Of a stretch of DNA of 52,975 nucleotides, positions 8,335-44,911 are shown piece by piece. The stretch is from positions 1 to 52,975 of the forward strand of contig NZ_JAKDKW010000007.1 of the NCBI RefSeq assembly GCF_030453185.1, read 5' to 3'. Both the position numbers and the translations under genes were made by a program. The notes under the pieces are model-generated. The model made no database searches. It worked only from the letters and a program-made list of their open reading frames with translations, and was not told where the DNA came from. Numbering within the stretch: the first letter of the stretch is position 1; every line of letters begins with the position of its first letter. The stretch is from Yaniella sp. Its GTDB lineage: Bacteria; Actinomycetota; Actinomycetes; Actinomycetales; Micrococcaceae.

Positions 8335-8937
8335 TTACTCAGAAATGATTGGTTGAGTATCTGTTGGAGCGGCCTGCGTCGGGGTCAGTTCGAAAAGTGT
8401 CGCTGACGCATCCTCCCAACGGCCGACAAGCCGGCGGAGTTCTCCACCATCAAGATCCAAATGGTCTAATACGTGATGAACCGACACGGTCCCCCAAGCT
8501 TCTGGAAGTTCGCCACGTATATAAATACTGATATCGGAATCTTCGGTTCCTTGATACTGTCCATCTTGATTATAGAAGTGAAAATCGGCCTGTTGGATCT
8601 CACCGGCGAGTGCTTGATTGAGCATATGAATGCCAACGGGATCTGCCATCGCATCGTAGGCCCACCGATCGCCAAGTACCGGATGGTCCATTTTGACGAT
8701 GAGATAGTCGTCTGCACCTTCTAAAGGCGCTGCCCTGTACGTCATCGGTAGATGCAAAATCTTGTCTTCACGTTTCAGAATGAAGCCTTCGAAACCAACT
8801 TCGCCACCTGTGTCATCAAATCGATACGTGCCGATAAGCTCCGGATCTCCAGAACCGCCCCAGAATTGTTTGTCTAACCATGCGGTCACAAACTCTTTTT
8901 TTGTGGGGTTAGTCTCTACTACATATACTGTGGCCAT
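8335..8937 (-). CDS. maltokinase N-terminal-cap-like (CG0192-related) protein
   Basis: The 200-residue protein matches the stand-alone cap-like family related to the N-terminal domain of maltokinase. Clues are GTYRFDDTGGEVGFEGFIL, the LPMTYRAAPLEGAD segment and DHPVLGDRWAYDAMADPV, which recur in that order in actinobacterial members. Catalytic kinase motifs are absent, so it is not an enzyme by itself. The ATG has no ribosome-binding site but sits six bases after TAGACT, which suggests a leaderless transcript. Confidence 0.72.
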   Translation of the reverse strand: MATVYVVETNPTKKEFVTAWLDKQFWGGSGDPELIGTYRFDDTGGEVGFEGFILKREDKILHLPMTYRAAPLEGADDYLIVKMDHPVLGDRWAYDAMADPVGIHMLNQALAGEIQQADFHFYNQDGQYQGTEDSDISIYIRGELPEAWGTVSVHHVLDHLDLDGGELRRLVGRWEDASATLFELTPTQAAPTDTQPIISE

Positions 8938-28215: not shown

Positions 28216-29105
28216 TAGTTATTCCCCATCATCTCGTCGAATTCATCAGAGCCATGCTGGCGTTGCCTGGTCCGCTGAGGTTTTCGTCCGCCGACAAAGA
28301 AGCCGATGGTAAAGCCAATCACTAACAGGGCCAGTCCGCCCAGGCTGATGGGTAACCAGGGAAGCTGCGGCGCCGGGATAATCGTGGGTTCCGGCTGAAC
28401 CACATCCTCAGCGTTCTCCGGGACATCGGGTTCATCGGTTGTTGCCGTCGCGGAGTCACAGTCGGCCATATCGAAGCTCAATGCTATTGGGTCCAGTGCT
28501 TCACCAGCTTCGTAGAAGCCGCCGAAGGCTGCAGCGCCCGAGTTTGTGAGCGTTGTTTGCAGGTCGGTGAGTTGTACCGAACCATCATCCGGTGAGATGT
28601 CCTCATCCAGGCTGATTTCGCCCACCCACTGTTGGTCTGCGTCAACGGCTACATCACCATCCATGTCATTACTTATGGTGTCCAATAACAGTGCGGCTTC
28701 TCCGTCGCCTTCAAATTCGAAGGTCGGGTTGGCTATGGTTAGGTCTAGCACACCGTCGTGGCCCGTAAACTGCACAGTGCCTTCGAAGGTGATGTCACCG
28801 GTTTCTGTTGCTGGATCGTACGCACCACTGCCGTCAGACCAGGTGAAATGGGGTGTGTCATATGAAGCACCTTCTGAGGTGTCCCACGAGCCGTTGGCGA
28901 TGCTGCCAGAGATGTAGGCACGGAAGCTTTCCTTAACACCCCAGTCCAGTGTTGCATTGGTTATTTGACACAATCCGGCCTCTGCGGTCTCGGCTTCGGT
29001 GGTTTGATCGGCAAAGGCAATGGATGGGGCTGCCAGTAGTGCGGCGCCAAGCGTCACCGGAAGCAGTGCTTTGGACAAACGTGCTGTGACGTTTGGAATC
29101 CTCAC
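28215..29105 (-). CDS. htaB: HtaB-like heme-binding membrane-anchored protein
   Basis: The 296-residue protein has a signal peptide (cut near AFADQ), one HtaA domain and a C-terminal membrane helix with a basic tail. The HtaA domain shows WGVKESFRAYISGSIANG, FTGHDGVLD and FGGFYEAGEALD; by comparison with corynebacterial HtaA, Tyr64, His116 and Tyr198 should be the heme-site residues. Start is the GTG at 29105, which has AAGGAG seven bases upstream; a frame reaching 29153 would run into htaA. Order htaA-htaB-hmuTUV suggests heme relay from wall to membrane. Confidence 0.88.
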   Translation of the reverse strand: MRIPNVTARLSKALLPVTLGAALLAAPSIAFADQTTEAETAEAGLCQITNATLDWGVKESFRAYISGSIANGSWDTSEGASYDTPHFTWSDGSGAYDPATETGDITFEGTVQFTGHDGVLDLTIANPTFEFEGDGEAALLLDTISNDMDGDVAVDADQQWVGEISLDEDISPDDGSVQLTDLQTTLTNSGAAAFGGFYEAGEALDPIALSFDMADCDSATATTDEPDVPENAEDVVQPEPTIIPAPQLPWLPISLGGLALLVIGFTIGFFVGGRKPQRTRQRQHGSDEFDEMMGNN

Positions 29106-29145
29106 GATTTCTCCTTGAGTAATGTTGTTGTGTCGACATACGGGT

Positions 29146-31812
29146 TTAGCCATCCGTCAATGACCCTGCTTGCATTCGTCGGTGCCGGGCTACGAGTAAG
29201 GTTGAACACCCTGCAATCGATAGGAGACTTCCGGCACTGGCCCACCATTCCCACGGTTGCATTCCGGTCAGCGCCAGTAATACGTCGCTACTGGCCGTAT
29301 TCGGACTGGTGGGCACGGTCGTGTCCATGGCTGCGGTTGCGCGGGCCAGCAGAATGTCGATTTCGGCTCCGGCATCACTGCTACCCTGCAGGGTGATGAT
29401 GTGCTCACCGGTGGCATCACTGGGCAATGTGCCCGACCATTCAACCGTGCCGTGTTCGTCGGCAACGGCCGTATCATCGAGCACGATGGGTTCTGCCCCA
29501 TCGGAATTTTCGTAGAGGACAGCCAACACGCCACTATCTTCTGCATCGAAGCCCTCTGCTTTGATCTTGATGCGACCGCCTTGGCGGATCTGGTCTTCGG
29601 GTGTCAAAACCTCGAGGCCTTCGGTTGTTGGAGGGGTATCGGCTGCCTCATACTGGGATTCGTCATCTTCGCCACTCCCTGCGGCACTGGTCCCAAAGGA
29701 TTCGTTACTTGCCGTGCCCACGGTAAATGTCACCGGATCCAGGTCGATACTCTGGGAGGCACTCACGCCCGCAAGAGAACCGTTGACCGGCACATTCGAC
29801 CAGGTCACCGAACCATTGGCATTTTCCGTTTTTGTTCCCTGGGCAAGGTCCAGTGGATAGGAAGCCTTCCCGTGGCTGGTGTTGTTGCCGGTGTGCAGGG
29901 TGGCCGTGGAGGCATCCTGCACGGTAATAGATGGGTTCGAGACCAGGAACATGCTCATCCCGTAGCCTTTAAAGTTGACCACACCCGAGAAGTTCACGGT
30001 GCCCGTCTGGTTTTCCTCGTCCCAGTCACCACCGGTAGCCTGTGGGAATACCCAACCGCTACCGACGCCGCTGGTTTCGATCTGTCCGCCAGCACAGTGT
30101 TTACTTGGGGTGGGGCAACTTGAGGAACCAGCTTTCTCGGTTGTATATGCGGCGAAATAGTCTGAGACACCCCACTTCATGGATCCGGCCGCAGAGCCTT
30201 CACCAGAGGTTTCGGCTACCGCGGGTGTTGACGAATCGTTGGACGAGGCGTTGCTTTGAGATTTTGGTGAAGCTGCCGGCGGCTTAGCGGTGCCGTGCTT
30301 GGTGCCTTCCCCAATGGTCAGGGTGATGCGGTCTAGTTCTTCACCGGTTGCATAGAACTCACTGCTGCCGTGGGAGAAGAATTGTTTGCCCTGGCTATGT
30401 AGGTTCACCGGGGCACTGCTGAATCGCACAGCGTCCCCGCCAAGTTCCTGTTTTTTAGCTTTGGCCAGATCTATGGTGGCCAGAGTGATGGTTTTGCCTT
30501 GCGAGGTTGTCTGAAGTGTGGCGGAGTTGGAATTTTCGACAACTATCACCGGGTTGGACAGCGTGACATCCATGACGCCGCTGTGACCATAAAAGTTCAC
30601 GTTACCGGCATATTGGATCTTGCCACTGGACCCGTTCCAGGTGGTGCCAGAGTCTGCCTGTGGGAAGGTGAAGGCACCGTTGCCGCGGGCTTGTTTGGCA
30701 CCGCCAGATGGGGTAATTTTTCCGTTCGCAATGCCGCCAGTGACGTAGTTCCGGAAGCTTTCTTTAACACCCCACTCCATGCTGCCTTGTACGCCTGAGC
30801 TCGAGGCACCTTCACTTGAGGATTTTTTGATGACCGAGACCGTAATATTCTTTGCCGCGGTGGAGTACTCAGCACTATCCGGGGTGAACTCTGCACGGAT
30901 CGTGTGGTCTCCACGAGACAGTGAGTTGGTTTTGAATTGTGCCTTGCCCTGCTGGGTTGCGGCCTCAGCCAGAACCGTACCGTCGCTATTCTTGAATTCG
31001 ACACGGCCTGCGAGTTGCGGCGTTACCGTGGCATTGAGCGTTACAGTTTCGCCCTCATAGACCGTCGATGATGAAGCCGTGATTGCCAGAGCCGCTGGTT
31101 TGACTGGTGTTTCTGGTTCCGTGGGTGGTGCGGCCTGGTCGATACCAAATTTGACGTTATCCACCTGTTTGCCAGGCTGGTAGTTCTCATTGGTGCGTGC
31201 AAAAACATCGGCACCATCTTCAGTAAAGAATGCTTTGGCATCGACCTGCCCAGCCTGCAGTTCATCATGGGTAAATTCTAGATCCACGATCTCTACGCGT
31301 TGCTGGTTGTATTGCGGAAAGCCGGCTTCGCCGGGTTGATCCACGATTGCCGACATTTTGGCAGTGGTGGGTGAGGTCAGGGTGATCTGTATGTCAGTAA
31401 ATTTTTGGTCAAGTGCCCAACTCCCCTCGGGGACTCCAACGCCTTGATGTCCTTGGGACAGCATGGACCCCCGGTAGGTGATCGTCCCGGTCCCGGCGAC
31501 TGGATTGATTTCTCCGGTGGCTTCAGTCCAGGTAACACGGTGGTTGTCATCCACGGTTGCTGGAGCTTCTGCCTTAATGTGTCCGTTAGCGATGCCACCG
31601 GTAATGTATTTGCGCCATTCGCTGTTGATACCCCACGTTAGTGTTCCGTCGCTAACGTTCTGCATGTCATGTTCTGATGTGTTGGTTTGGTCTGCCCAGG
31701 AAGCAGTGGCCATGAGCATCGAACCGGAACCAATTGCTACCAGCAGCGTTAGAAGCAGCGTTATTGATCTGCGGATGATGCTTAGGGACATGGTATTTCG
31801 CCCCATAGTCAT
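29146..31812 (-). CDS. htaA: HtaA-like cell-wall heme receptor with three HtaA domains
   Basis: The 888-residue protein has a signal peptide (to about 41), HtaA domain 1 (about 57-220), an Ig-like domain (240-330), HtaA domain 2 (343-500), HtaA domain 3 (543-700), a second Ig-like domain and a C-terminal LALTG (846-850), hydrophobic helix and ARHRRM tail. The LALTG motif fits class E sortase anchoring. Domains 1 and 2 keep Tyr69/His122 and Tyr356/His410/Tyr487. Domain 3 has Tyr in place of the His (FKGYGMS) and an extra cysteine pair (SSCPTPSKHC), so it may bind differently or serve as spacer. Start could also be the ATG at 31806. Confidence 0.9.
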   Translation of the reverse strand: MTMGRNTMSLSIIRRSITLLLTLLVAIGSGSMLMATASWADQTNTSEHDMQNVSDGTLTWGINSEWRKYITGGIANGHIKAEAPATVDDNHRVTWTEATGEINPVAGTGTITYRGSMLSQGHQGVGVPEGSWALDQKFTDIQITLTSPTTAKMSAIVDQPGEAGFPQYNQQRVEIVDLEFTHDELQAGQVDAKAFFTEDGADVFARTNENYQPGKQVDNVKFGIDQAAPPTEPETPVKPAALAITASSSTVYEGETVTLNATVTPQLAGRVEFKNSDGTVLAEAATQQGKAQFKTNSLSRGDHTIRAEFTPDSAEYSTAAKNITVSVIKKSSSEGASSSGVQGSMEWGVKESFRNYVTGGIANGKITPSGGAKQARGNGAFTFPQADSGTTWNGSSGKIQYAGNVNFYGHSGVMDVTLSNPVIVVENSNSATLQTTSQGKTITLATIDLAKAKKQELGGDAVRFSSAPVNLHSQGKQFFSHGSSEFYATGEELDRITLTIGEGTKHGTAKPPAASPKSQSNASSNDSSTPAVAETSGEGSAAGSMKWGVSDYFAAYTTEKAGSSSCPTPSKHCAGGQIETSGVGSGWVFPQATGGDWDEENQTGTVNFSGVVNFKGYGMSMFLVSNPSITVQDASTATLHTGNNTSHGKASYPLDLAQGTKTENANGSVTWSNVPVNGSLAGVSASQSIDLDPVTFTVGTASNESFGTSAAGSGEDDESQYEAADTPPTTEGLEVLTPEDQIRQGGRIKIKAEGFDAEDSGVLAVLYENSDGAEPIVLDDTAVADEHGTVEWSGTLPSDATGEHIITLQGSSDAGAEIDILLARATAAMDTTVPTSPNTASSDVLLALTGMQPWEWWASAGSLLSIAGCSTLLVARHRRMQAGSLTDG

Positions 31813-31879
31813 CGTCCTCCTCGAGGTGGAGTTGAGTTGAAAAGCCTGTATGCGGTAGAAAAGCTTGAGAACGCCCGCA

Positions 31880-31920
31880 GGGCGATCCGCTTACGTCGCT
31901 ATGACGCCGGCGGATCGCCC
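31880..31920 (-). terminator. hairpin between the surface-repeat gene and htaA
   Basis: A perfect 11-bp stem (31880-31890 with 31910-31920) lies between two genes of the same direction. No T-run follows at once on the minus strand, so it may be an attenuator or mRNA-processing hairpin that sets the ratio of the surface protein to the heme genes. Confidence 0.55.
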
Positions 31921-31939
31921 GGGACGTAGGTGTGCAGTA

Positions 31940-34267
31940 CTACACTGAAGTGTTCTGGGTTTCAGTTATTGCACGTTTGCGGTTATGAGCCACGATCATG
32001 GCGCCGAACACAACCATGAGCAATGCAATGATTGCTGCCATGGTGATGCTTGCACCGGTGGTTGCAAGTCCGCTTTGGGTACCGCCGGTTTGGTCACCAG
32101 CAGTCGTAACAGCACCATCGCTATCGGTATCGGTATCGGTGCCATTGCCGGTATCGTCGCCGTCATTGCCAGCGGGAGCATCTGCTGCGATCACCGTGAA
32201 GGTGCCGGCAAATGAACCGAGATCATCGTTAGCGAAGGTCACGGTGTGTTCCCCGAGTTCGAAATCTTCCGGGACGGTCCAGCTGGTTGACGCAGAGTTG
32301 CTTTCGTCAGCCGTAACGGTGTCCAGTTCAATTGGATCAGACTGCACAGTCACGTTGAACGCAGTTCCCGCTGTAACAGGAGCAATCGAGAAGGTGACCT
32401 CGTCGCCTTGCCGTACGGAAGCATCAGAAGAATCGTTAACGGTTACAGTGATGTCGTTGTTGTCATCGGTATCGTCATTCCCGTTGCCGGTTTCGTCTTC
32501 GTCTTCGTCATCGTTACCGTTCTCACCGCCATTGCCGTTTTCGTCTTCGTCTTGGTCTTCGTCGTTGTTATCTGGGATGTCGAGTTCATCCCAGTTGATT
32601 TCGAGATCAGCACGACCATAGAGATTGGCTTCGGAAGGATTAGAACGAGTCGGCCAAGAAATGACTTCGTAGTCTTTTTCAGGATCGACACTGTCAACAT
32701 CAACGGTCAAAACCGCGTCAACATTGCCATGGTCGTCAATCGACGCCGAAATAGCAGTATCCGTGTCGCTAACCTCACCAAGATCCGAACCCTGTTCAAT
32801 CAACGTGAAGTACGCACCAGGACCAGCCTGACCAGGTAACGCCTGCACCTCACCAAAACCGGACCCCGAAATCGCAATCTCCAGACCCTTTTCAGTTACC
32901 TGAGAGGCCTTGGCAGTAAAGCTAATCGAAGTGTCAGTATCCTCGTCCTCATCTCCTGGGGTTGGCACCGGGAAAAGTGCCTCCCAATCGATGGTGACGT
33001 CAGCACGGGCGAAGAGATTTTCCTCAGATGGTATTGCACGGGATGGCCAGGAAATTACTTCGTAGTCTTTCGAAGCGTCCAGTTCTTCAGCATCGATGCT
33101 CAATACGGTTTCCAGTTCACCGTTTTCATCGATTACAGCGGATACCGCGGTAGCATCCTGTCCGACTGCAGAAAGTTCTGAGTCTTTCTCGATTAACGTG
33201 AAGTAGGCCAGTGGGACCCCCTGACCAGGAAGAGCTTCGACAGCGTCAAAACCTTTTCCTGCGATAGCAATATCAATACGTTCATCGGCAACTTCGGTTA
33301 CGGAAGTCGTAAATTCAGGATTTACCTCTGGAGTTTCCTCGTCTTCGTCTTGGTCCTCGTCGTTGTTATCTGGGATGTCGAGTTCATCCCAGTTGATTTC
33401 GAGGGCAGCACGACCATACAGATTGGTTTCGGAAGGATTAGAACGAGTCGGCCAAGAAATGACTTCGTAGTCTTTTTCAGGATCGACACTGTCAACATCA
33501 ACGGTCAAAACCGCGTCAACATTGCCATGGTCGTCAATCGACGCCGAAATAGCAGTATCCGTGTCGCTAACCTCACCAAGATCCGAACCCTGTTCAATCA
33601 ACGTGAAGTACGCACCAGGACCAGCCTGACCAGGTAACGCCTGCACCTCACCAAAACCGGACCCCGAAATCGCAATCTCCAGACCCTTTTCAGTTACCTG
33701 AGAGGCCTTGGCAGTAAAGCTAATCGAAGGCTCAGTATCCTCGTCCTCATTACCGTTCTCGTCGCCGGCTGGACGATCAAGCAGGACGTCCCAGTCAATG
33801 TCAATATCGGTGCGGGCAAACATGTTTGCTTCGGTCGGGAACGAACGGTTTGGCCATGCAATGACCTCGTACTCTGAGCCTTCTTCCAGCTCAGCGACGG
33901 GCACATTAAGCAAATCCGAGAAATTTCCCTCTTCGTCGATTATCGCGGAAATCGAGGTCGCGGTATCCGTGACATCTGCGAGATCAGCAGCTTTATCAAT
34001 AACCATTAGATACGTGCCAGGCGCTGACTGGCCCGGAAGTGCGGACACATCGTCAAAGCCCGTGCCTTCAATTGCCACCTCAATGCGTTCATTCGGCACT
34101 TCGGTCACTTCAGCAGTGATCGCCTTATCGCCAGCTGCCTTCGCCGGGGCTGACACAGCTAAAAGGCCACCCATCGCTAAGGCTGCAGCGGTCATAAGAC
34201 CTACTGCACCCTTCATTTTCGAAGCATGCTGCCCAGGTAATGGGTCATGCATTGACGTAACTGTCAT
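31940..34267 (-). CDS. repeat-rich cell-wall-anchored surface protein
   Basis: The 775-residue protein (start at 34267 after AAGAAGGAAA) has a signal peptide ending APAKA, four repeats of about 115 residues, acidic D/E/N/G linkers, an Ig-like domain and a C-terminal LATTG, helix and NRKRA tail, as in class E sortase substrates. Each repeat shows GFxxVxALPGQ, a Y-x-LIxK/Q region and YEVIxWPxRS. Repeats 2 and 4 are almost identical. The repeat is not HtaA-type and I do not recognise it as a named heme domain, but its position as first gene behind an iron box and before htaA suggests heme or iron-source capture. Confidence 0.75.
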   Translation of the reverse strand: MTVTSMHDPLPGQHASKMKGAVGLMTAAALAMGGLLAVSAPAKAAGDKAITAEVTEVPNERIEVAIEGTGFDDVSALPGQSAPGTYLMVIDKAADLADVTDTATSISAIIDEEGNFSDLLNVPVAELEEGSEYEVIAWPNRSFPTEANMFARTDIDIDWDVLLDRPAGDENGNEDEDTEPSISFTAKASQVTEKGLEIAISGSGFGEVQALPGQAGPGAYFTLIEQGSDLGEVSDTDTAISASIDDHGNVDAVLTVDVDSVDPEKDYEVISWPTRSNPSETNLYGRAALEINWDELDIPDNNDEDQDEDEETPEVNPEFTTSVTEVADERIDIAIAGKGFDAVEALPGQGVPLAYFTLIEKDSELSAVGQDATAVSAVIDENGELETVLSIDAEELDASKDYEVISWPSRAIPSEENLFARADVTIDWEALFPVPTPGDEDEDTDTSISFTAKASQVTEKGLEIAISGSGFGEVQALPGQAGPGAYFTLIEQGSDLGEVSDTDTAISASIDDHGNVDAVLTVDVDSVDPEKDYEVISWPTRSNPSEANLYGRADLEINWDELDIPDNNDEDQDEDENGNGGENGNDDEDEDETGNGNDDTDDNNDITVTVNDSSDASVRQGDEVTFSIAPVTAGTAFNVTVQSDPIELDTVTADESNSASTSWTVPEDFELGEHTVTFANDDLGSFAGTFTVIAADAPAGNDGDDTGNGTDTDTDSDGAVTTAGDQTGGTQSGLATTGASITMAAIIALLMVVFGAMIVAHNRKRAITETQNTSV
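32543..32952. repeat. 410-bp direct repeat, copy 1
   Basis: Nearly identical to 33341-33750 (offset 798 bases), differing at only a few positions. It encodes repeat 4 of the surface protein and part of the acidic linker. Recombination between copies would remove 798 bases in frame (266 codons). Confidence 0.9.
33341..33750. repeat. 410-bp direct repeat, copy 2
   Basis: Second copy of the sequence at 32543-32952; encodes repeat 2 of the surface protein. The near identity contrasts with the diverged repeats 1 and 3 and points to recent duplication or gene conversion. Confidence 0.9.
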
Positions 34268-34394
34268 ATGTACGTTTCCTTCTTTTAGGTGTAGATGATT
34301 GGACACAAAAATCTAAGGTCATGATTCCTGGAGGGAATTACAGCACGACAACGACACCAAACTTGGACGACCCGGTGTTGTTACACTTATTCAC

Positions 34395-34413
34395 TAAGGC
34401 GCGCCTTACCTAA
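34395..34413 (-). promoter_or_regulatory. DtxR/IdeR-like box before the heme-uptake operon
   Basis: The site matches the 19-base consensus at about 13 positions and reads TTAGGTAAGGCG on the minus strand, with a strong inverted-repeat character (TAAGGCGCGCCTTA). It lies about 130 bases before the start at 34267. Confidence 0.6.
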
Positions 34414-34723
34414 TTAACGGATCACTATACGTTCCTCTGTGAGCGATGACAACCAAAGGTAAGATTTGGGCGTTTTGTTACATCGGCCGGGTCGTGAGAG
34501 TGGAAGACGGTCAGAACTGCGAAGAATAAACACTGAATACAAGCACAATTGTGTGATATGAATGAGAGCGTTGAAAATAGCACCCAAAATTCACGCTCCT
34601 AAAAGTTTGCTGACGCAACAGCAAGACGACCAGCCGTCCCCGAAGCAGGCCCAAATTCAGCCCCATTGTCACCCGACGATCATGCTTGACGCGGTGAGAA
34701 TATGATGGGGGTTCTCATTTGAT

Positions 34724-34742
34724 TAAAGGTAGGCTAACCTAA
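34724..34742 (+). promoter_or_regulatory. DtxR/IdeR-like box before heme oxygenase
   Basis: The best match in the window, 16 of 19 positions, with an intact right half GGCTAACCTAA. It lies about 65 bases before the heme oxygenase ATG. Confidence 0.75.
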
Positions 34743-34807
34743 GACCCAATATATGCCCGAAGCAATTTTTCTGCGGGCCTCGTCCGATACACACCAAAGT
34801 AGGTTCA

Positions 34808-35488
34808 ATGCCACGTTCAGAAGACTCACATTCATTGGCGTCGCGGGTACGACAGCTCACGGCGGAAGACCACAGATCTGCTGAGACAGCATCGTTTATT
34901 ACTGGGCTCATGGGTGGAGAGCGCTCCGTCCGGGATTACGCACTCCTCGTTTCGCAATATCATTTCATTTACGAGGCGTTGGACGCTGCCGCAGAAACAC
35001 TGCGCACTGAGACAATTCTCCCCGGAGTCACAGCATTATTGGATCCCAAGCTTGACCGCCGGTCAGCAATTCAACGTGATTTGGCAACGCTGCTACCAGA
35101 AACTGGACTGTCCTGCGCACTTGTGCCGATGAAAGCTACGGTCGAGTATGTAGAGCGTATTCACCAGGTTGCAAACGATCCTGCACGGCTGACAGCCCAC
35201 CACTACTTGCGCTACTTAGGCGACCTTTCCGGGGGCCTTGCTATTGCGCGTTTGATGCAACGGCACTATCAAGTTCCAGATCATCAACTCAACATGTACA
35301 CTTTCGAATCGATCGAAAAACCAAAGTTGTATAAAGATGCATATCGAGACCAGCTGAACCGACTCGGGCTAACGGTCGAACAGGAAGAAACGTTCATCGA
35401 GGAAGCTGGTTTTGGTTTCGGCTATAACAAGAGGATTTTCGAAGAGTTGGGCGACTACGCTGATTCTTTGACTCCAATGACAGTCTGA
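34808..35488 (+). CDS. hmuO: heme oxygenase (biliverdin-producing)
   Basis: The 226-residue enzyme opens heme to biliverdin, CO and free iron in the cytosol. The proximal heme histidine lies in LTAEDHRSAE near residue 22, and the distal helix has the family motif YLGDLSGG. Length and order of segments match corynebacterial HmuO. It is divergent from the heme-uptake operon and preceded by its own iron box, so it should be induced with uptake under iron limitation. Confidence 0.95.
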   Translation: MPRSEDSHSLASRVRQLTAEDHRSAETASFITGLMGGERSVRDYALLVSQYHFIYEALDAAAETLRTETILPGVTALLDPKLDRRSAIQRDLATLLPETGLSCALVPMKATVEYVERIHQVANDPARLTAHHYLRYLGDLSGGLAIARLMQRHYQVPDHQLNMYTFESIEKPKLYKDAYRDQLNRLGLTVEQEETFIEEAGFGFGYNKRIFEELGDYADSLTPMTV

Positions 35489-36491: not shown

Positions 36492-38297
36492 TCAGCCCTG
36501 TTGTTTGGGTTCACGTTGGGCGCGAGTGGTGGAAAACAACGGCGATTCAGGGATCGAACTCCAAGCATTCCAGAGTCGCTGATATTGGCCTTGTACCGCT
36601 AATAATTCATCGTGGGTTCCCGACTCAACGATACGACCTTCATCCATGACGATAATTCGATCCGCGGACAGCACCTGGTTGAGCCGGTGCGCAACGATGA
36701 TTCCGGTTCTACCTCGAAGTACTTGAGTAATGGCCTGATCCAGGACACCGGAGGAACGCACAATTGATTCCGCACCTGCCTCATCCAAAATGAGCACTTG
36801 CGGGTTGGCCAGATACGCTCGTGCCAACGCTATTTGTGCTGCTTGGACAGCACTGAGTTGATGCGCGCCATCTCCCACGAGGGTGTCGAGATTAGCAGGC
36901 AGTTCTACAACCCACGGTTGGGCTGCCACCGCAGTCACAGCCTCCCAGAGTTGTGCTTCAGTGGCATCGGGACAAGCCAGGGTGAGGTTCTCGGTCAGAG
37001 ATCCGGTGAAAATATGGGTTTCTTGGGTTACCAACCCCACCGAGGTTGCTTGGGTCGATCCACCGGTCGCATCGTCACCCACCAGCACTTGCCCGCTTTC
37101 GGGTACTAGCAAGCCGGCGATCAGCAATGCCAACGTGGATTTCCCTGCGCCACTGGGGCCGACCAGAGCGACTTGTTCACCGGGTTGGATATCAAGATTA
37201 ATATCGTGCAGCACGCGGGTGTGTTGACGGTCAAAATCTAGGTTACGGATTTGCACTTGCCCTGGCCGCACAACTGCGGAGGGCAATGACTGGACCGGTG
37301 CGACCTGATCGGGCATGTTGGCGAGTCCGGCTATGCGGGTGAGTGACGCCGCAGCGGATTGAATGTCATTGAGACTGTTGACAACCATGCTCATGGGGTT
37401 AAAAAGCCGGTGGAAGAGCAGTGCGGCAGTGGTGACGGCGCCAACGGTGGCAAAGTTGAAGTCGACCAGGAAGTAGCCGGTCAACAGAATCATGGCCAGG
37501 CCGGTGTATTCGGCCCAGTTTAACCATTTACTCCAGCTCGTTCGAAACCATAAAATACCTCGTGAGCTCAGCCTGGCGGTATTTGAGGAGTCATCAATTT
37601 GGGCAGCAAAGTGTTCCTGAGCTTGATAGGCGTCAACGGTGTCTGTCCCGCGCAGTGCCGCGATCACCGTTTCTGCGCGAACCGCAAAGAGTTGACGTTC
37701 TTGCGCAAAACGGGGTGTGGCACGTGGCAAGTACCAAAGCAGCGCGAAATAGTACACCGGGAGGGCGCATAGTCCGGCCAGCGCTAAGACCGGGTGCAAA
37801 CCAATGAGGCCGCCTAGGGTCAGCACGATGGCCAGGACTGCGCTCACCAGCGGGCCCAGTAGCGGACCAAGTGTCCGGCCGATGACAGCAACATCGTCAC
37901 TGATCCGGCTGACGACGTCCCCAATACCGGCTTGTTCGATCCGTTCGCCAGGTAATTGCAGGGTGCGTTCCAGGGCTTGTTCGCGCAGTCCGGCGAGAAT
38001 ATGCTGCCCGAGCCTGGCCACGGTTGCTGCCCCGGCACCAGCGGTCACCCCGCCAATGAGCATGGCAGCAAGCAGTGGTCCCACCCAGCTGAGCATGTTG
38101 ATATTCGTTGCATCGGCTGTGATCTTGTCGATCAGGTGCCCGACGATACAGGGGGCGACCAGACCACTGGCGGCAGCCACCAGACTCAGCATGATCGCGC
38201 TGGACAGCAGCAGGCCGTGGCCGCGGACGCAGTTTCGCAGCAGGGCCAAGGTTTGACGGGCGGTGGCCAACGGCAACTGATGGCTGGTGGAATTCAT
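36492..38297 (-). CDS. ABC transporter half, catalytic-site subunit (IrtB-like)
   Basis: The 601-residue exporter-fold subunit has six helices (about 25-325) and an ATPase domain. Walker A is intact (GPSGAGKST, 380-388) and Walker B ends LDE (504-506), but the signature is LSAVQ (481-485) instead of LSGGQ. The start at 38297 overlaps the preceding gene by four bases (ATGA). Together with the partner at 38294 and the siderophore-interacting protein it resembles a split mycobacterial IrtAB system, which uses an exporter fold to import ferric siderophores. Confidence 0.85.
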   Translation of the reverse strand: MNSTSHQLPLATARQTLALLRNCVRGHGLLLSSAIMLSLVAAASGLVAPCIVGHLIDKITADATNINMLSWVGPLLAAMLIGGVTAGAGAATVARLGQHILAGLREQALERTLQLPGERIEQAGIGDVVSRISDDVAVIGRTLGPLLGPLVSAVLAIVLTLGGLIGLHPVLALAGLCALPVYYFALLWYLPRATPRFAQERQLFAVRAETVIAALRGTDTVDAYQAQEHFAAQIDDSSNTARLSSRGILWFRTSWSKWLNWAEYTGLAMILLTGYFLVDFNFATVGAVTTAALLFHRLFNPMSMVVNSLNDIQSAAASLTRIAGLANMPDQVAPVQSLPSAVVRPGQVQIRNLDFDRQHTRVLHDINLDIQPGEQVALVGPSGAGKSTLALLIAGLLVPESGQVLVGDDATGGSTQATSVGLVTQETHIFTGSLTENLTLACPDATEAQLWEAVTAVAAQPWVVELPANLDTLVGDGAHQLSAVQAAQIALARAYLANPQVLILDEAGAESIVRSSGVLDQAITQVLRGRTGIIVAHRLNQVLSADRIIVMDEGRIVESGTHDELLAVQGQYQRLWNAWSSIPESPLFSTTRAQREPKQQG

Positions 38298-39919
38298 GCG
38301 GTCACCCATTTTCGGTATTCGGTGACGGTTTGCAGCAGGTGCTGATGCGTCCCCGTGTGGGTTGGTTGCCCATGGTTAGCAAAGATGATGCGGTCGGTGA
38401 CCGCTAGCAGTGCCGGCGAGTTCGTGATCACCACGGTGGTGCGTTGTGTTTGGGGCCCATGTCTGAACCGGGCTAATCGGGGTGCGATTTCGGCCTCGGT
38501 GGCAGAATCTAATCCGGTGGTGGGGTGGTCTAAGACCAGTACTGCTGGGTCAGCATATAATGCCCGTGCCAGCGCAAGGCGTTGGCGTTGGCCACCCGAT
38601 AAGGTGGTGCCGCGGTCCCGGATGGGTGTGTGGATGCCATCGGGCAGGGCCGCAACGAATTCCAATGCGTGGGCCGCATGTAGGGCCTGCCGCATCCGGT
38701 CGTCATCGGATTGGAGCGGTGCGATAGCCCCCAGACGCAGGTTCTGGGCAACTGTGCCAGCAAACAGATCCACCTCGGCTGGTTCGGCGTGCACCCGGGC
38801 ATCTTCTACCCGGTGCTCATAGTGCAGTGCTGTGCAGGCAGCCGCATCCCCGACCAGTCCAATGAACTCGCCGACTTGGACCCGGATGGCCGGGTTAGCC
38901 GTGGTGGACGATACCCCTTGCTGCGGGCTGTTGGCAGGGTTGGGGTCGAGATCGGATGGGGTGTGGCTGGCATCAATGATGCGTTGTAGACCCGCGTGGG
39001 TGGTGGCTCGCAGTTGGAGGAAATGTCCGATATGTGACAGGGGTTCGGTCATAAATTGTGCGGCACCCACGGCGGTCACAAAGCCGCCGATACTGATCTG
39101 GCCGTCCAGGGCAAATAGGCCTGCGGCAATCACGGCACTGACCATGACCACGTTGCCGGCCAGTGTACTGGCCCCCTGTTGGATAGCCTGGGCGTTACCG
39201 GCCCGAATGCCAGCGACGGCGGCCTGCTGGCTGCGCTGACGGTAGCGGTGGGCCGCTTCCCTGCCGGCGTTGAGGCCGTGGAGTATTCGCAATCCGCTCA
39301 GCGCATCGGTGGCCCATCCGGTAGCCTGCGCAAGGGAGTGTTGTTGGGCCGCAACCCGCCGGGTAATAAGTTTGGAGATGCGTTCCAGCACCAGCGTGGC
39401 GACCACGGCGATGACAATCAACATCATGCCAAGACCAACATTGACGTTTAAAAGCACAGTACAGGTCACTGCGAGCGCAGCACCGGCACCAAATAGTGCA
39501 GAGGAATAGTCAATGGTTTGGGACGCCAGATCGGCGTCCGAGGTGGCCAGCGATAACTGTTGGCCGCGAGTGAGTTTCGGGTTACCCCGTCCGGCGAGGA
39601 AGTGTTGTGAGAGTCGGCCGCGCATCCGGTGTGCTTCATTAATGGTACTGCCGAAACCGTATCGGGAAGCCCACCGCCAGCACAGGGTGAGTGCCAGAAA
39701 CGTGAGTGTCAGCAGTGCCAGGTCTATCAGCAGCCACCACGGGTTCGCATCGGATATGGCGGTATCAATGGTCAGACCGATCAGCAGTGGGATGAGGGCT
39801 TCGCAGCTTTGATGCCCCATGATCAGCAGACTGGCGGCTATGTGGCGTGAGCGGTTGCGTTTTAGAATGTCTCGGACGGCACCCCGAATGGTGGGGGCAA
39901 GAACGACTTCTTGGCTCAA
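38294..39919 (-). CDS. ABC transporter half with degenerate nucleotide site (IrtA-like)
   Basis: The 541-residue subunit has six helices (about 25-300) and a shortened ATPase domain. The Walker A region reads GLVGDAAACTAL (about 354-365) without the GKS/T lysine, and Walker B ends LDH (463-465) where the catalytic Glu should be; the signature LSGGQRQR (440-447) is intact. About 40 residues between Walker A and Q-loop are missing. Start is TTG at 39919 because it overlaps the stop of the preceding gene (TTGA); an in-frame extension to 40081 would lie inside that gene. Partner of the subunit at 36492. Confidence 0.82.
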   Translation of the reverse strand: MSQEVVLAPTIRGAVRDILKRNRSRHIAASLLIMGHQSCEALIPLLIGLTIDTAISDANPWWLLIDLALLTLTFLALTLCWRWASRYGFGSTINEAHRMRGRLSQHFLAGRGNPKLTRGQQLSLATSDADLASQTIDYSSALFGAGAALAVTCTVLLNVNVGLGMMLIVIAVVATLVLERISKLITRRVAAQQHSLAQATGWATDALSGLRILHGLNAGREAAHRYRQRSQQAAVAGIRAGNAQAIQQGASTLAGNVVMVSAVIAAGLFALDGQISIGGFVTAVGAAQFMTEPLSHIGHFLQLRATTHAGLQRIIDASHTPSDLDPNPANSPQQGVSSTTANPAIRVQVGEFIGLVGDAAACTALHYEHRVEDARVHAEPAEVDLFAGTVAQNLRLGAIAPLQSDDDRMRQALHAAHALEFVAALPDGIHTPIRDRGTTLSGGQRQRLALARALYADPAVLVLDHPTTGLDSATEAEIAPRLARFRHGPQTQRTTVVITNSPALLAVTDRIIFANHGQPTHTGTHQHLLQTVTEYRKWVTA

Positions 39920-40737
39920 TGTTCGGCTCGACCTCGTTTCCAATAGCCGCTGAAAGTAATCGCTTCTCTGGGTACGTGGTGGTCGTTGACCAACAGGCGT
40001 CGCAACTGTTTGACCACCCCGGATTCGCCGGCGATCCAGGCGTAGAACCCCGGCGTTGCAGGCTGCTGAGCCAAGGCCCACTCGTGGATATCGACAGCTA
40101 ACTGACCATCAGCAGGAGTCACGCGGTGCATGTACTGGTTGGGTCCGGTCTGCTGTACGGTTTGGGCGTCCTGGACCATCTCCGATGCTAAAAAGACGTG
40201 GTATTGGGTTTCGGGTTGGCTTTTGGTCAGGATATTGCGGATGGCCGGGAATGCGGTTTCGTCTCCAACCAGCAGGATTCTCTTGGCGGCACCCGGGCGA
40301 AAGTCGATGCCGCCGGTGGAGTCTTCGGCCCGTGAGTCCGGGCCCACCACCAGTAGCCGGTCCCCCGGTGTGGCCTGTTGGGCCCATTGTGATGCTGGAC
40401 CGCCAGGAGTATGCACCACGAAGTCGATGTCGATTTCTTCTTGTGCCGGTCGGATGCCGCTGGCGGTAAACGTGCGGATCGTGTTGCGCTGGTCAGCCGG
40501 TAACATCCGCCATTTGGCATACCACTGGTTGAGTCCCGGTGGTGGGTCATCCAGGATGCCGAAATCACCGTATCCGCCCTCGGGCAGTTCCAACACTATT
40601 TTCATGCGTTGGTCCAACCCGTGTGCCGCATAGTTGCGCAACTGGGGTCCAGCCAGGGTGATGCGAATGATATGCGGGCTTAACTGGGTGACGGCCTCCA
40701 CGCAGGTGTGGAATACCGGGAAGGGGGTGTAGGTCAT
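39916..40737 (-). CDS. siderophore-interacting protein (flavin-dependent ferric-siderophore reductase)
   Basis: The 273-residue protein belongs to the SIP/ViuB family: an FAD-binding barrel (about 10-125) with MKIVLELPEGGYG, and a NAD(P)H domain (about 130-273) with ILLVGDETAFPAIRNIL and the C-terminal GYWKRGRAE block. It reduces imported ferric siderophore to release iron in the cytosol. The ATG at 40737 is chosen for the AGGA just before it. In mycobacterial IrtA this domain is fused to the transporter; here it is a separate gene coupled to it. Confidence 0.9.
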   Translation of the reverse strand: MTYTPFPVFHTCVEAVTQLSPHIIRITLAGPQLRNYAAHGLDQRMKIVLELPEGGYGDFGILDDPPPGLNQWYAKWRMLPADQRNTIRTFTASGIRPAQEEIDIDFVVHTPGGPASQWAQQATPGDRLLVVGPDSRAEDSTGGIDFRPGAAKRILLVGDETAFPAIRNILTKSQPETQYHVFLASEMVQDAQTVQQTGPNQYMHRVTPADGQLAVDIHEWALAQQPATPGFYAWIAGESGVVKQLRRLLVNDHHVPREAITFSGYWKRGRAEH

Positions 40738-40756
40738 GCATCCTAAACTTTCGCAT

Positions 40757-40783
40757 GCTGCGGACACCGGGTGTGTCCGCAGC
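40757..40783 (-). terminator. hairpin between the binding-protein gene and the reductase gene
   Basis: A perfect 11-bp stem (40757-40767 with 40773-40783) with a 5-base loop lies between the binding-protein stop and the reductase start. No T-run follows on the minus strand, so partial read-through or mRNA stabilisation is more likely than full termination. Confidence 0.6.
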
Positions 40784-40797
40784 TGAGTGGACTATGG

Positions 40798-41844
40798 CTA
40801 GTTGTTCTCGAGTTTGGCGACGACGTCTTCAAGTTCGGGCACAACCTGGTCCAGTGCAATGCTCAGGCTGGGCACGGTGCCGGCAGTGGTTCCTGCCATA
40901 ATGTCACTTTCTGGGTCTACGATGATGGCACGACCATCTTTGACCACATCCAGTGAGTTGATCAGCGCATCATTTTCTAGGTCTTCGATGGGATAACCGA
41001 TGGTGGTCAGCACGGCGATATCACTATCCATGGCTTCAACCTGTTCCACTGACACGGCCGCGAAGAAGCCATCCGGGCTGGGGAGTTCGGCGATCTCTGC
41101 GTCCAGTACGAAGCCGAGATCCCCGTAGAGGTCGAAGCGGGCATCACCGGGCAGGCTGGCACCGTAGGCATCACCGAATTTGGAGCCGGAGACCAGTTCG
41201 ACGCCATCAAATTGGGGGTGTTCGTCTTTGATATCGGCAATCTTCTCGTCAAGTTCGGCAACCTGTGCTTCGCCCTCCTCGACTTTGCCGAGACCTTGGG
41301 CAATAGTACGGGTGTGGTCACGCCAGTTCACCGCATAATCCGGTGTGCCTTCGGTTGCTTGAATCGTTGGAGCAATTTCGCTGAGCCGTTCATAAGCTTG
41401 GTCATCGAATGCTGCCCGCACGTTGAGGATCACATCTGGGTCCAAGGACTGGATCTGCTCGTAGTTTAGTGATTCATCCCCGCGTTCAATCAATTCGACT
41501 TCGGTGTCACCGAAGTCATCGGCGATCCAGGAGCCCACCCCGTTGTTTTCTTCACCGTGGGACTGCCAGTCCAAAATTGCCACGGGTTTGACGCCGAGCG
41601 ACAGCGCAACTTCACCGTCTGACCAGCCCAGGGCCACCACCCGTAATTCCTCACCATCTGCTGGTGCGGGCACATCAACGGTGCCGTATTTTGTTTCAAC
41701 GCTGCCCAAAATGTTCTCTGAGCCGGGAGGTTCAGCGGCTGGGTCAGTAGTGTCGTTGCCAGAACAGCCGCTGAGCACGAGTGTCAGTGCCGCGGCGGTG
41801 GTCACCAGAAGTATTGCGGGGTTTTTGCGGGTGGACATAGACAT
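40798..41844 (-). CDS. ferric-siderophore-binding lipoprotein
   Basis: The 348-residue protein has a lipoprotein signal peptide (LTLVLSGC, Cys near residue 27) and a FhuD/FecB-type binding fold: ELRVVALGWSDGEVALSLGV at the start, SLDPDVILNVRAAFD before the hinge helix. The substrate is probably a hydroxamate or citrate-type siderophore but cannot be named from sequence. It lies 50 bases after the ATPase gene, in the same direction. Confidence 0.9.
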   Translation of the reverse strand: MSMSTRKNPAILLVTTAAALTLVLSGCSGNDTTDPAAEPPGSENILGSVETKYGTVDVPAPADGEELRVVALGWSDGEVALSLGVKPVAILDWQSHGEENNGVGSWIADDFGDTEVELIERGDESLNYEQIQSLDPDVILNVRAAFDDQAYERLSEIAPTIQATEGTPDYAVNWRDHTRTIAQGLGKVEEGEAQVAELDEKIADIKDEHPQFDGVELVSGSKFGDAYGASLPGDARFDLYGDLGFVLDAEIAELPSPDGFFAAVSVEQVEAMDSDIAVLTTIGYPIEDLENDALINSLDVVKDGRAIIVDPESDIMAGTTAGTVPSLSIALDQVVPELEDVVAKLENN

Positions 41845-41894: not shown

Positions 41895-42698
41895 TTAGCC
41901 TTGGACGGCACCGTGGGCTAGCGGAATGATCAGTGGGGTGCCCGATTCCGGATCTTCGACGATGCGACTGCGCACCCCGAACGTGGCTTCAATAAGTTCG
42001 GCTGTGACCGTTTCAGCTGGTGGCCCTTGTGCCAGGATGGTGCCGTCTTTGATGGCCACCAAATGGGTGCCATAGCGGGCGGCCTGATTCAGATCGTGCA
42101 GCACCGCCACCAGCGTGTGGCCGGTCTTATTGAGTGTGGTGCATAATTCCAGTACTTCGATTTGGTGGGCCAGATCCAAAAAGGTGGTCGGCTCATCCAG
42201 TAGCATCAACGGGGTGTCTTGGGCAAGGACCATGGCAATCCACACCCGCTGGCGTTGCCCGCCCGATAGCTGGTCCACCGCTGAGGTTGCCAATGCGGTG
42301 AGCCTGGTGTCTGCCAGTGCCTGCTGGACGGCGGCCTCATCAGTCTGGGTCCACTGTCGGAAGATACCCTGGTGTGGATGCCTGCCCCGAGATACCAGGT
42401 CAATGACGGTAATGGACTCCGGTGCCACCGCGCTTTGGGGCAGCAGCCCGATGCGGCGGGCCAGTTCCTTGGTGCGCATGGAGCTAATATCGGCACCATC
42501 CAGCAGCACCCGTCCCGATTGCGCCGGCAGCAGCCGTGCCATGGAACGCAGCAGGGTAGATTTACCCGAAGCGTTGGCACCCACGATGACGGTGAATGAG
42601 CCCGGCGGGATCTCCAGGGAGACGTTGTCAAGAATAGTGCGCTTATCGTAGCCGGCGTGTAAGCCCTGGGTGCTGAGTTGGTTCACAATACTGTTCAT
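41895..42698 (-). CDS. siderophore ABC transporter ATP-binding protein
   Basis: The 267-residue FecE-type ATPase has Walker A GANASGKSTLL, signature LSGGQRQRVWIAMVLA, Walker B LMLLDEPTTFLD and switch VLHDLNQAARYG. The start at 42698 overlaps the preceding permease stop by four bases (ATGA); a frame to 42734 exists but would overlap further. It energises the two permeases encoded just upstream. Confidence 0.93.
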   Translation of the reverse strand: MNSIVNQLSTQGLHAGYDKRTILDNVSLEIPPGSFTVIVGANASGKSTLLRSMARLLPAQSGRVLLDGADISSMRTKELARRIGLLPQSAVAPESITVIDLVSRGRHPHQGIFRQWTQTDEAAVQQALADTRLTALATSAVDQLSGGQRQRVWIAMVLAQDTPLMLLDEPTTFLDLAHQIEVLELCTTLNKTGHTLVAVLHDLNQAARYGTHLVAIKDGTILAQGPPAETVTAELIEATFGVRSRIVEDPESGTPLIIPLAHGAVQG

Positions 42699-43777
42699 GC
42701 TCGATTCTTTCGGCTTTGGTTGATCAGCAGCCACACCAAGTAGCAGCCGCCGACCACGACGGTGACGGTACCCACCGGCAATTGGGTGGGAGCCACGATG
42801 GTGCGAGATATCAGGTCACTGGTCACCAGTAACAGTGCCCCCAGCATCGCACTTGCCGGCAAGGGAATTGTGCCGGTTTTGGTCATGCGGACGGCGATTT
42901 GTGGGGCCACCAAGGCGATAAATGCGATGGGTCCGGCAACCGATACCACCCCGGCGGTCAAAGCCACGGCTAACAGGATCATCCACCTGCGCAATCGGTC
43001 GACTTGTACGCCCCGGCTGATGGCCACATCATCACCAAAGGGCAGCATGCTGATGTCACCGGAAAGCCGGGCCAGAAACGGCAGACACACCAGTAGGACA
43101 ACGGCTACCGTGAGCACATCTGCCCAGGTAGCGGTGTTGATCGATCCAGCACCCCAGATAGCCGCTGATACGGCACTTTCCAGTTTCGCCGTCAACAGCA
43201 GGTAGGTGTTTATTGAACCCAGCAGTGCGCTGATGCCAATGCCGATGACGATGAGTCGGAATCCGGTCAGGCCCTTGCGTAGCGCCAGCAGGTAGATCAT
43301 AGCTGCGGTGAACAGCCCACCAAGCATGGCTCCCAGGACCGATCCGGTATGGGAGGTTTGGAAGACGAGCATACCGATCAGCGCACCGGTGTACGCCCCG
43401 GTGTTGAATCCGATGATATCGGGGCTGCCCAGGGGGTTGTTGGTGAGTGTTTGAAACAGTGCTCCGCTCAACGCCAAGGCGGCACCGCCCAGCAACGCCA
43501 GGGTGATGCGCGATAGACGCCAGTGGACCACCACCCGGTAGATGCCGTCATCTGCTTGTCCTCGCAGCGCTGCCAGGACGTCACTAAAGTTCAGGGTGGA
43601 GTCACCAATGGTCAGCGACCAGAATCCGACCGCCAGCGCTAGCACCGCCAGAGTAACCGTCACGGTCAGGCTGCGAAGATTAACACGTAGGGTGTGGCGA
43701 CTGCCGGGGATTTTCAAGAATCGTGTGCTGGCTGGCCAAGATGCTGCAGTGAGTTGTTTCGTCGGAGTTTGCGTCAC
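42695..43777 (-). CDS. siderophore ABC transporter permease 2
   Basis: The 360-residue FecCD-family permease has about ten helices, with LSRITLALLGGAALALSGALF, NPLGSPDIIGFNTGAYTGA and GVQVDRLRRWMI as family marks. It forms a heterodimer with the product of 43774. Overlaps both neighbours by four bases, so the four transport genes are translationally linked. Confidence 0.94.
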   Translation of the reverse strand: MTQTPTKQLTAASWPASTRFLKIPGSRHTLRVNLRSLTVTVTLAVLALAVGFWSLTIGDSTLNFSDVLAALRGQADDGIYRVVVHWRLSRITLALLGGAALALSGALFQTLTNNPLGSPDIIGFNTGAYTGALIGMLVFQTSHTGSVLGAMLGGLFTAAMIYLLALRKGLTGFRLIVIGIGISALLGSINTYLLLTAKLESAVSAAIWGAGSINTATWADVLTVAVVLLVCLPFLARLSGDISMLPFGDDVAISRGVQVDRLRRWMILLAVALTAGVVSVAGPIAFIALVAPQIAVRMTKTGTIPLPASAMLGALLLVTSDLISRTIVAPTQLPVGTVTVVVGGCYLVWLLINQSRKNRA

Positions 43778-44829
43778 AGTGTTTTTGCCTCACTTCGGCG
43801 AACCAGCCAGATCAGTACCGGGGCGCCGACGAAGGCGACCACAACACCGGCGGGAAGTTCGTTACCCAGTAAGATCCGACCGACAATATCGGCGCTGAGC
43901 ACCAGTGCCGGTGCGCTGATCACACTCACGGGGATGACCCAGCGCTGATCTGGGCCCACCACACTGCGCACCGCGTGGGGCACCATGAGCCCAATGAAGC
44001 TCAGCGGTCCGGCCGCCGCGGTAGCCGCCCCGCACAGCAGGGTGATTGCGACAAATCCCAGTGCCCGAATCCAGGCCACGTGGACTCCCAGGGAACGGGC
44101 GAGGTCTTCGCCCAGGGCCAGTGAATTGAGTTGTCGAGCCAGTCCCAGGGCAATGAGCAGTCCCAGGATAATAAATGGCAGCACGCCCTGGACCACGTCC
44201 ATTTGACGGCCCTGCAGGGATCCGGCACTCCAGTAGCGGACTTTGTCAAAGACCTGTGGGTTGAGCAGCGTGATGCTAGAACTCATACCGGTCAGCACCG
44301 CCCCGAGGGCAACCCCGGTCAGGACCAGGTGCACCGGATTGCCGCCCTGTCTGCCGGTGGTGCCGATCAGAAACACGGCAACAGAAATGAGTAATGCGCC
44401 CAGCATCGCACACCACACTTGCCCGAACGTGGTGCTAATTCCCAGCAGACCGGCACCCAAAGTCACAAATAAATAGGCTCCGGCGTTGACACCCAAGATA
44501 CCGGGGTCGGCCAGTGGGTTGCGGGTCATTGCCTGAATCAGGGCGCCGGCAGCTCCCAGGGCAGCACCCACCAGCACCGCCAGGATGGTGCGTGGGATGC
44601 GGTAATCACGCACGATGAGCAGGTTGGACTCGCTGCCGGTGCCGCGTAGCGCGGCCCAGGAGTCTGTCAGGCTCATCGCCCCAGATCCCACAAAGCAGCT
44701 GATCACACACAATATGGCCACCAGGAGTATGCCCAGGACTGCTGCACTGGTGCGTCCTGGGGCACCAATCCGTTGACGCAACGGTGCCACAGTATCCGGT
44801 GAGGCCGCGGCCCCTATGGTCGCAGCCAT
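43774..44829 (-). CDS. siderophore ABC transporter permease 1
   Basis: The 351-residue FecCD-family permease has the same plan as its neighbour: YRIPRTILAVLVGAALGAAGA, NPLADPGILGVNAGAYLF and SLGVHVAWIRALG. First transport gene of the siderophore operon; a DtxR-like box lies about 65 bases upstream. Third positions in this block look clearly richer in G and C than in the flanking backbone, in line with a separate origin of the cargo. Confidence 0.94.
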   Translation of the reverse strand: MAATIGAAASPDTVAPLRQRIGAPGRTSAAVLGILLVAILCVISCFVGSGAMSLTDSWAALRGTGSESNLLIVRDYRIPRTILAVLVGAALGAAGALIQAMTRNPLADPGILGVNAGAYLFVTLGAGLLGISTTFGQVWCAMLGALLISVAVFLIGTTGRQGGNPVHLVLTGVALGAVLTGMSSSITLLNPQVFDKVRYWSAGSLQGRQMDVVQGVLPFIILGLLIALGLARQLNSLALGEDLARSLGVHVAWIRALGFVAITLLCGAATAAAGPLSFIGLMVPHAVRSVVGPDQRWVIPVSVISAPALVLSADIVGRILLGNELPAGVVVAFVGAPVLIWLVRRSEAKTL

Positions 44830-44892: not shown

Positions 44893-44911
44893 TTAAGCAA
44901 GGCTTACCTAA
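44893..44911 (-). promoter_or_regulatory. DtxR/IdeR-like box before the siderophore uptake operon
   Basis: The site matches the 19-base consensus at 15 positions (GGCTTACCTAA half intact). It sits between the AraC-type gene and the first permease gene, so the operon can respond to iron independently of the regulator gene. Confidence 0.7.

Follow-up and report, generated by a model that had tools for sequence, protein, structure and literature searches.

An ATP-binding cassette (ABC) transporter normally recognisable by its ATP-site motifs is puzzling when one of its halves has lost most of them. Such a case is found in a stretch of 52,975 nucleotides of Yaniella sp. (contig NZ_JAKDKW010000007.1; this whole stretch is hereafter called the window), where two neighbouring genes encode type IV ABC half-transporters, here named half A and half B, with ATP-site motifs that are kept and lost in a complementary way. 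The question is whether this lopsided pair is a broken transporter or one that works with a single ATP site, and, if it works, what it moves and in which direction. The same arrangement recurs in many actinobacterial relatives, which suggests a long-standing functional design rather than a broken gene. Judged from the sequences, half A and half B probably form a type IV heterodimer with a single ATP site, which would carry siderophores under the control of iron.

ATP-site motifs of half A and half B

The two genes and the motifs on which the argument turns are as follows.

38294 to 39919, minus strand: half A, type IV ABC half-transporter, 541 amino acids (motifs, Pfam, alignment, structure model)
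38828 to 38851, minus strand: Walker A equivalent of half A, GDAAACTA, motif lost (sequence, alignment)
38588 to 38602, minus strand: signature LSGGQ of half A, intact (sequence; SGGQ in 77/77 aligned A-halves)
38525 to 38539, minus strand: Walker B of half A, LVLDH; Asp of Walker B retained, His in place of the catalytic Glu
36492 to 38309, minus strand: half B, type IV ABC half-transporter (motifs, Pfam, alignment, structure model)
37137 to 37160, minus strand: Walker A of half B, GPSGAGKS, intact (G, G, G, K and S/T in 74/74 B-halves)
36843 to 36857, minus strand: signature position of half B, LSAVQ, degenerate (SGG in 0/74 aligned B-halves)
36780 to 36794, minus strand: Walker B of half B, LILDE (sequence)
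36687 to 36689, minus strand: H-loop His of half B (sequence)

Both halves contain the ABC_membrane and ABC_tran domains of the type IV fold. Half A matched PF00664 with 63.3 bits and PF00005 with 41.1 bits, the latter from profile positions 67–137 only; the corresponding scores of half B were 110.3 and 88.9 bits. When compared with NCBIfam, eight A and B halves matched solely generic exporter models, far below the cut-offs.

An earlier note, made from the sequence alone, had stated that half A lacks the Walker A lysine and the catalytic Glu but keeps LSGGQ, and that half B keeps Walker A and the Glu but reads LSAVQ at the signature. Re-reading of the motifs bore out both statements. In addition, half A has neither the Q-loop Gln nor the H-loop His and keeps the D-loop, while half B keeps the Q-loop and lacks the D-loop Asp. 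In an ABC dimer, each ATP lies sandwiched between Walker A on one half and the signature on its partner (PMC7756269), so the site with B in cis and A in trans is complete, and the mirror site has been lost from both partners. The note was thus also right that the pair has the motifs for one complete composite site and one dead site. Its description of the ATPase domain of half A as shortened was correct as well, but the size of the loss, given there as about 40 residues, varies with the measuring points: 24 residues separate the Walker A and Q-loop columns in half A of the window versus a median of 48 in the B-halves, and from the first strand to the signature there are 107 residues in half A versus 134 in half B.

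In the heterodimer that we propose, half B would supply the Walker A, Q-loop, Walker B with its Glu, and H-loop of the sole ATP site, and half A would supply only the trans parts of the same site, LSGGQ and the D-loop. The mirror site would be gone, half A having no P-loop to hold a nucleotide and half B no signature to close on it. Each cycle would bind and hydrolyse one ATP, and the ATPase domain of half A would act as a docking clamp.

The motif pattern in relatives

Relatives were drawn from 395 genomes of the family, from plasmid records and from 394 genomes of the class. The motifs were tabulated from a joint alignment of 77 A-halves, 74 B-halves and seven ordinary half-transporters from the same loci, which served as controls. 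Fragments below 430 bits (A and B of locus L051, A of L052, B of L136) had been left out beforehand; the near-copy pairs L053/L054 and L056/L061 are still counted within the 77 and 74.

The Walker A motif was present in none of the 77 A-halves, and the Lys column read K in a single one. The Q-loop Gln and the H-loop His were likewise missing from all of them (0/77 each) and the Walker B Asp remained in nine, while each residue of the signature (S, G, G, Q) and the D-loop Asp occurred in 77/77. The B-halves presented the converse picture: the G, G, G, K and S/T of Walker A, the Q-loop Gln, the Walker B D and E and the H-loop His were found in 74/74 each, a complete SGG in 0/74 and the D-loop Asp in 18/74. 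All seven controls had intact motifs. Because the complementary pattern is seen in every A-half and B-half aligned, it is beyond chance. Among 79 loci having an A-half, 76 also had a B-half in the same stretch.

The profile used to search for A-halves was built from 15 proteins already without Walker A, and such a search leans towards Walker-A-less proteins. Two checks on this bias are the trees built from the transmembrane part only (see below) and the proteins with intact motifs whose scores fall directly under the gap. Of the 30 top-scoring class-wide A matches, none had Walker A and all had LSGGQ. At the score boundary, 14 further A-halves (344–425 bits) also had no Walker A, 13 of them reading SGGQ and one SGGE. 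The next-best 16 loci that were read, with matches of at most 298 bits, had Walker A and resembled ordinary exporters, 13 of the 16 with an LDD Walker B. No relative with a normal Walker A in half A was found among the A-halves read at 344 bits or more in this family-profile search. The best A match reached an E-value of 1e-100 or better in 190 of the 394 class genomes, a count made by eye from the listing, with most of the proteins unread.

In a search of nine genomes of the genus, the window's own included, a full-length match was found in the window's own genome only. The relative search of genome contigs gave two distant exporters only, and that of viral contigs brought up ordinary exporters for the most part, together with L344, a partial B-half. 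In L051 (positions 7219–8861, genome G323) the A-half runs over two frames, by frameshift or sequence error.

Constraint on half A and its history

In the ATPase domain of the 77 A-halves, the columns conserved to at least 97% lie almost exclusively in the signature helix and the D-loop or next to them. The residue following the lost H-loop His is a near-invariant Ser in the A-halves (99% of the 77), where B-halves have Arg; this Ser possibly makes a new contact.

The dN/dS of the A ATPase domain was 0.07–0.39 in nine informative pairs of relatives, which share loci and are thus not fully independent, and exceeded that of the B domain in 7 of the 8 pairs having both. Three of 12 pairs had been set aside, two of them near-identical, with almost no changes (about 0.8 and 0.4), and one saturated (0.65). 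These values cover the relatives, half A of the window having no relative close enough. They show that the A ATPase domain is under selection in the relatives, more loosely than that of half B.

On a FastTree tree computed from transmembrane columns only, 86 A-halves formed one group and 36 B-halves another, both starred, every second B-half having been kept for this run (36 of 71). A careful transmembrane-only tree of 34 hand-picked rows supported the A and B groups with 99/95 and 100/100, and its A-half and B-half trees were broadly similar. Fragments and near-copies (L051, L052, L054, L059, L061), two of the 14 boundary A-halves (L245, L247) and one of the six IrtAB pairs (L230) had been dropped before the trees. 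As each half forms one group even when the ATPase domain is not considered, the loss of Walker A appears to be old and was probably a single event. The shortening is a different matter. Fewer than 40 residues between the Walker A and Q-loop columns were found in 10 of the 77 A-halves, the other 67 having 40 or more; the shortened lineages are not all adjacent on the FastTree tree, and shortening is absent from L110, which groups with the window. The shortening is a later, second step, which probably arose several times.

Structure models

AlphaFold2 monomer models were made from a 26-row alignment of the window proteins and mostly ordinary exporters, with a mean predicted local distance difference test (pLDDT) score of 83 for half A and 85 for half B. 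The ATPase domain of the half B model has strands at 352–361, 364–374, 379–383, 405–410 and 424–427 and a P-loop helix at 390–397. The half A model has a strand at 352–357, a segment with pLDDT below 50 at 360–374, a further element at 376–379 and the signature helix at 442–456. By our matching of these elements, half A is predicted to lack the P-loop helix and three strands.

The best Foldseek matches of the half A model were the chains of TM287/288, whereas VIA-align placed the chains of CydDC and TmrAB first, tied; IrtAB chains were matched as well. The ATPase domain of half A could be superposed on that of ComA (3vx4_D) at 1.9 Å over 196 residues. Whole-chain superpositions of half A gave root mean square deviations of about 17–19 Å because the protein was folded as a monomer, and the match of the ATPase domain is the informative one. 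For half B, the best half-size profile match was TM288, followed by TmrAB.

Gene row and probable cargo

The pair stands at the end of a row transcribed from the minus strand in the order FecCD, FecCD, FecE-type ATPase, binding protein, siderophore-interacting (SIP) reductase, half A, half B. The genes before half A and the regulatory site are as follows.

44893 to 44911, no strand assigned: DtxR-type iron box, two mismatches, 64 bases upstream of the FecCD-to-half-B row
43774 to 44829, minus strand: FecCD-type permease, first gene past the iron box (Pfam)
42695 to 43777, minus strand: FecCD-type permease (Pfam)
41895 to 42734, minus strand: FecE-type ATPase of the classical importer (ABC_tran match; FecE name from position)
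40798 to 41844, minus strand: siderophore/iron-complex binding protein, Peripla_BP_2 (Pfam)
39916 to 40767, minus strand: SIP, siderophore-interacting reductase (Pfam PF08021 and PF04954; no match in NCBIfam)

The scan with what we take to be the DtxR-type iron-box consensus gave three matches in the window against a mean of 0.02 in shuffled sequence. The open reading frames (ORFs) of half A and half B are both intact. That of half A is over-long when read from GTG 40081; from TTG 39919 it gives 541 amino acids, and we infer that TTG 39919 is the start. With this start, half A shares four bases (TTGA) with the reductase gene, whose TGA stop lies within them, which agrees with the earlier note's description of the reductase as a separate, coupled gene. 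Half B probably starts at ATG 38297, overlapping the stop of half A (ATGA). From the TTGA and ATGA overlaps, SIP, half A and half B look translationally coupled.

As the pair lies in an iron-boxed row with a complete FecBCDE-type importer and SIP, its cargo is most likely a siderophore. No non-ribosomal peptide synthetase (NRPS) condensation domain and no IucA/IucC domain was found in the window's genome (assembly 97% complete), so the siderophore handled would probably be a foreign one.

Neighbours were counted in loci where at least 7 kb was read; the queries were proteins of the window together with a sequence motif, and diverged genes may escape them. FecCD, binding-protein, SIP or AMP-binding genes accompanied the pair in 44 of 62 window-clade loci versus 0 of 13 in the sister clade, and in 35 of 62 versus 0 of 13 when AMP-binding genes were not counted. 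SIP abuts the pair on the same strand in seven other loci, next to A in L057, L058, L063, L064, L126 and L129 and next to B in L141. In L110, the near relative mentioned above, genes for an AraC-type regulator, FecCD, a FecE-type ATPase and a binding protein lie next to A and B. The sister clade of Walker-A-less pairs (L135, L138, L140, L142, L145–L148, L150 and L153) has other surroundings: among 58 neighbour ORFs from 10 loci of this clade, guaA-type domains were found in five and IMPDH in three.

Several observations weigh against a siderophore-moving, one-site pair. Eighteen of the 62 window-clade loci have none of the tested neighbours, among them the close relatives L050 and L018, AMP-binding genes do not point to siderophores specifically, and loci from a single clade cannot be counted as independent. 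Because the sister clade sits beside guaA- and IMPDH-type genes, siderophore cargo is not family-wide. The complete classical importer in the same row weakens what can be concluded about both the cargo and the direction of the pair. As to the ATP site, a Glu stands at the catalytic column in 26 of the 77 A-halves, with DE in six, and loss of motifs is no proof of lost nucleotide binding.

Other features were noted in L018 and in the window. The pair of L018 (6022–9299) is carried on a Pseudonocardia megaplasmid; genes for aldoxime dehydratase and cyanase lie in the same stretch, which has none of the iron genes tested. The window also contains a haem-uptake island (25176–35488). It comprises two HtaA-domain proteins (28215–29153 and 29146–31812), a binding protein (27073–28215) with a FecCD-like gene and an ABC ATPase below it on the minus strand, and a heme oxygenase on the plus strand (34808–35488); the interval from 34306 to 34808 contains two further iron boxes, at 34395 and 34724. 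Beside the haem genes, a protein of 788 amino acids (31940–34306) had no Pfam match and by eye shows repeats, acidic linkers and a C-terminal end resembling a membrane anchor.

Likeness to the coelichelin locus

The same complementary motif loss was seen in the halves of L359/L360 and of the overlapping L152/L155. The former have FecCD, FecCD, FecE-type, binding-protein, B-half and NRPS genes, the latter an NRPS gene followed by the A-half, and an ornithine/lysine monooxygenase gene upstream was seen in L359 only. We take this to be the gene order of the coelichelin (cch) cluster and base the identification on it. On this basis CchG/CchI would belong to the family of the window pair, which has both features by which we propose to recognise such a family, the motif split and the transmembrane grouping. 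In Streptomyces coelicolor the coelichelin cluster is SCO0489–0499, with CchI (SCO0491), CchG (SCO0493) and CchCDEF as the uptake system (PMC12161575), and CchGI is the presumed coelichelin exporter (PMC12161575; PMC3765725). The cch-type loci differ from the window in having an NRPS gene between the halves; in the window's genome no NRPS condensation domain was found. Nor do the A-halves of L152 and L155 share the shortening seen in the window. Among the papers listed in literature searches, mostly from non-subscription sources, none reported in its title or displayed abstract that CchI or a related protein is without Walker A.

Direction of transport and comparison with IrtAB

Since a full classical importer is already present in the gene row, we favour export. 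With the siderophore probably foreign and SIP overlapping half A, we propose that the A–B pair returns the iron-free siderophore outward after SIP has stripped it of iron; such export or recycling stands at about even chances.

The strongest alternative is that of the earlier note, an IrtAB-like importer, in which A–B would take up the ferric siderophore and the separate SIP, docked on half A, would replace the reductase fused to IrtA. We regard this as possible, though somewhat doubtful. IrtAB is also a type IV heterodimer linked to a SIP-type reductase, and the position of SIP next to A in the window and in six other loci (next to B in L141) would suit such a docking. There is furthermore no home-made siderophore of the two synthesis classes searched that would need export, and, as mentioned, the half A model matches IrtAB chains too. 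Grouping of A with IrtA and of B with IrtB was neither supported nor rejected by the 34-row careful tree (approximately unbiased test, p = 0.388 and 0.331), in which the deep branches are weak.

On the other hand, IrtAB has two complete ATP sites and its reductase is fused to IrtA, whereas SIP is a separate gene, half A has no Walker A and half B no LSGG. In all six IrtAB-type pairs examined, so labelled from their reductase–ABC fusion, each half had Walker A and (L/M)SGGE. IrtAB of Mycobacterium tuberculosis binds two ATPs, each of them enclosed by a Walker A and a signature (PMC10246721). The assignment of the window pair to an IrtAB-like family is thus not supported. Against the A profile the IrtAB-type pairs scored 112–171 bits, below the ordinary A-type halves (195–298 bits, the latter having been picked by that profile). 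FastTree put IrtA and IrtB on the B side, with their long branches meeting, a placement on which the careful tree does not decide, and its grouping of A with ordinary A-type halves was weak in the careful tree (58/88). A complete FecBCDE-type importer is moreover already present in the row, and export is the presumed role of CchGI (PMC12161575), which gene order places in the family. YbtPQ is a siderophore importer with an exporter fold and in that respect similar to such an importer, but it differs from the window pair in holding ADP-vanadate at both sites (PMC10967856).

Nucleotide binding by half A and other alternatives

A second alternative is that the pair is an ordinary heterodimer with a degenerate site, in which half A still binds nucleotide non-canonically, as in known exporters. 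As in those exporters, the window pair has one complete composite site and a second that is degenerate in the contributions of both halves, and like TM287/288, TmrAB and CydDC the pair has a degenerate signature in B and no catalytic Glu in A. It differs from them in that half A has also lost Walker A, the Q-loop Gln and the H-loop His; the TM287/288 type would call for Walker A in both halves, so that both sites can bind ATP, and the 16 ordinary loci read just below the family keep it, whereas all 77 A-halves, the window's included, are without it. Yeast Pdr5 has the ABCG fold. It resembles the window pair in that all motifs of one composite site are changed, split over two domains, and it works with the Walker A Lys replaced by Cys and other motifs of the site changed (PMC7756269). 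Its motifs are substituted and not deleted, however, and it is a single polypeptide. Structures of CydD still contain nucleotide at a site presumed to be degenerate (PMC10374445), and most A-halves keep 40 or more residues, a normal length, in the Walker A to Q-loop stretch. With Walker A, the Q-loop Gln and the H-loop His absent from all 77 A-halves and with no P-loop helix in the window's half A model, where residues 360–374 are poorly predicted, we nevertheless consider non-canonical binding by half A unlikely.

That A and B are not partners and B works as a homodimer is very improbable, since a B–B dimer would be without any LSGGQ and an A–A dimer without a P-loop, B-halves lie beside nearly all A-halves and the trees of the two halves are broadly similar. 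Least credible of all is that half A is a copy in decay, or was recently disabled by mutation, in an operon losing the pair: the eight other genomes of the genus gave no full-length relative, the A-half of L051 is broken and the A domain mostly evolves faster than that of B, but the relatives read have the same loss, the ORF is intact with overlapping starts and dN/dS is well below 1 in all nine informative pairs of relatives, so that a recent knockout is rejected. Nor was there any sign of a frameshift or assembly error in the window, the loss being common to relatives.

Meaning of a one-site pair

Degenerate sites as such are common, occurring in 21 of 29 human full-length or heterodimeric proteins, and the reason for a degenerate second ATP site in many ABC transporters has been called enigmatic (PMC7756269). 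What differs here is that the whole set of nucleotide-binding motifs is lost from one half across a large bacterial clade, with the domain itself partly deleted in some lineages. In P-glycoprotein, mutation of one Walker A Lys left about 15% of transport (PMC4846820). We think it fairly likely that half A and half B represent a widespread actinobacterial family in which one ATP site was removed outright, one nucleotide is used per cycle and the partner half serves as a signature and D-loop clamp. Evolution appears to have run a strong version of the one-site experiment and to have kept the result over many genera. The one-site cycle could thus be studied in natural proteins, and the motif pattern may serve as a test for recognising such pairs in siderophore loci.

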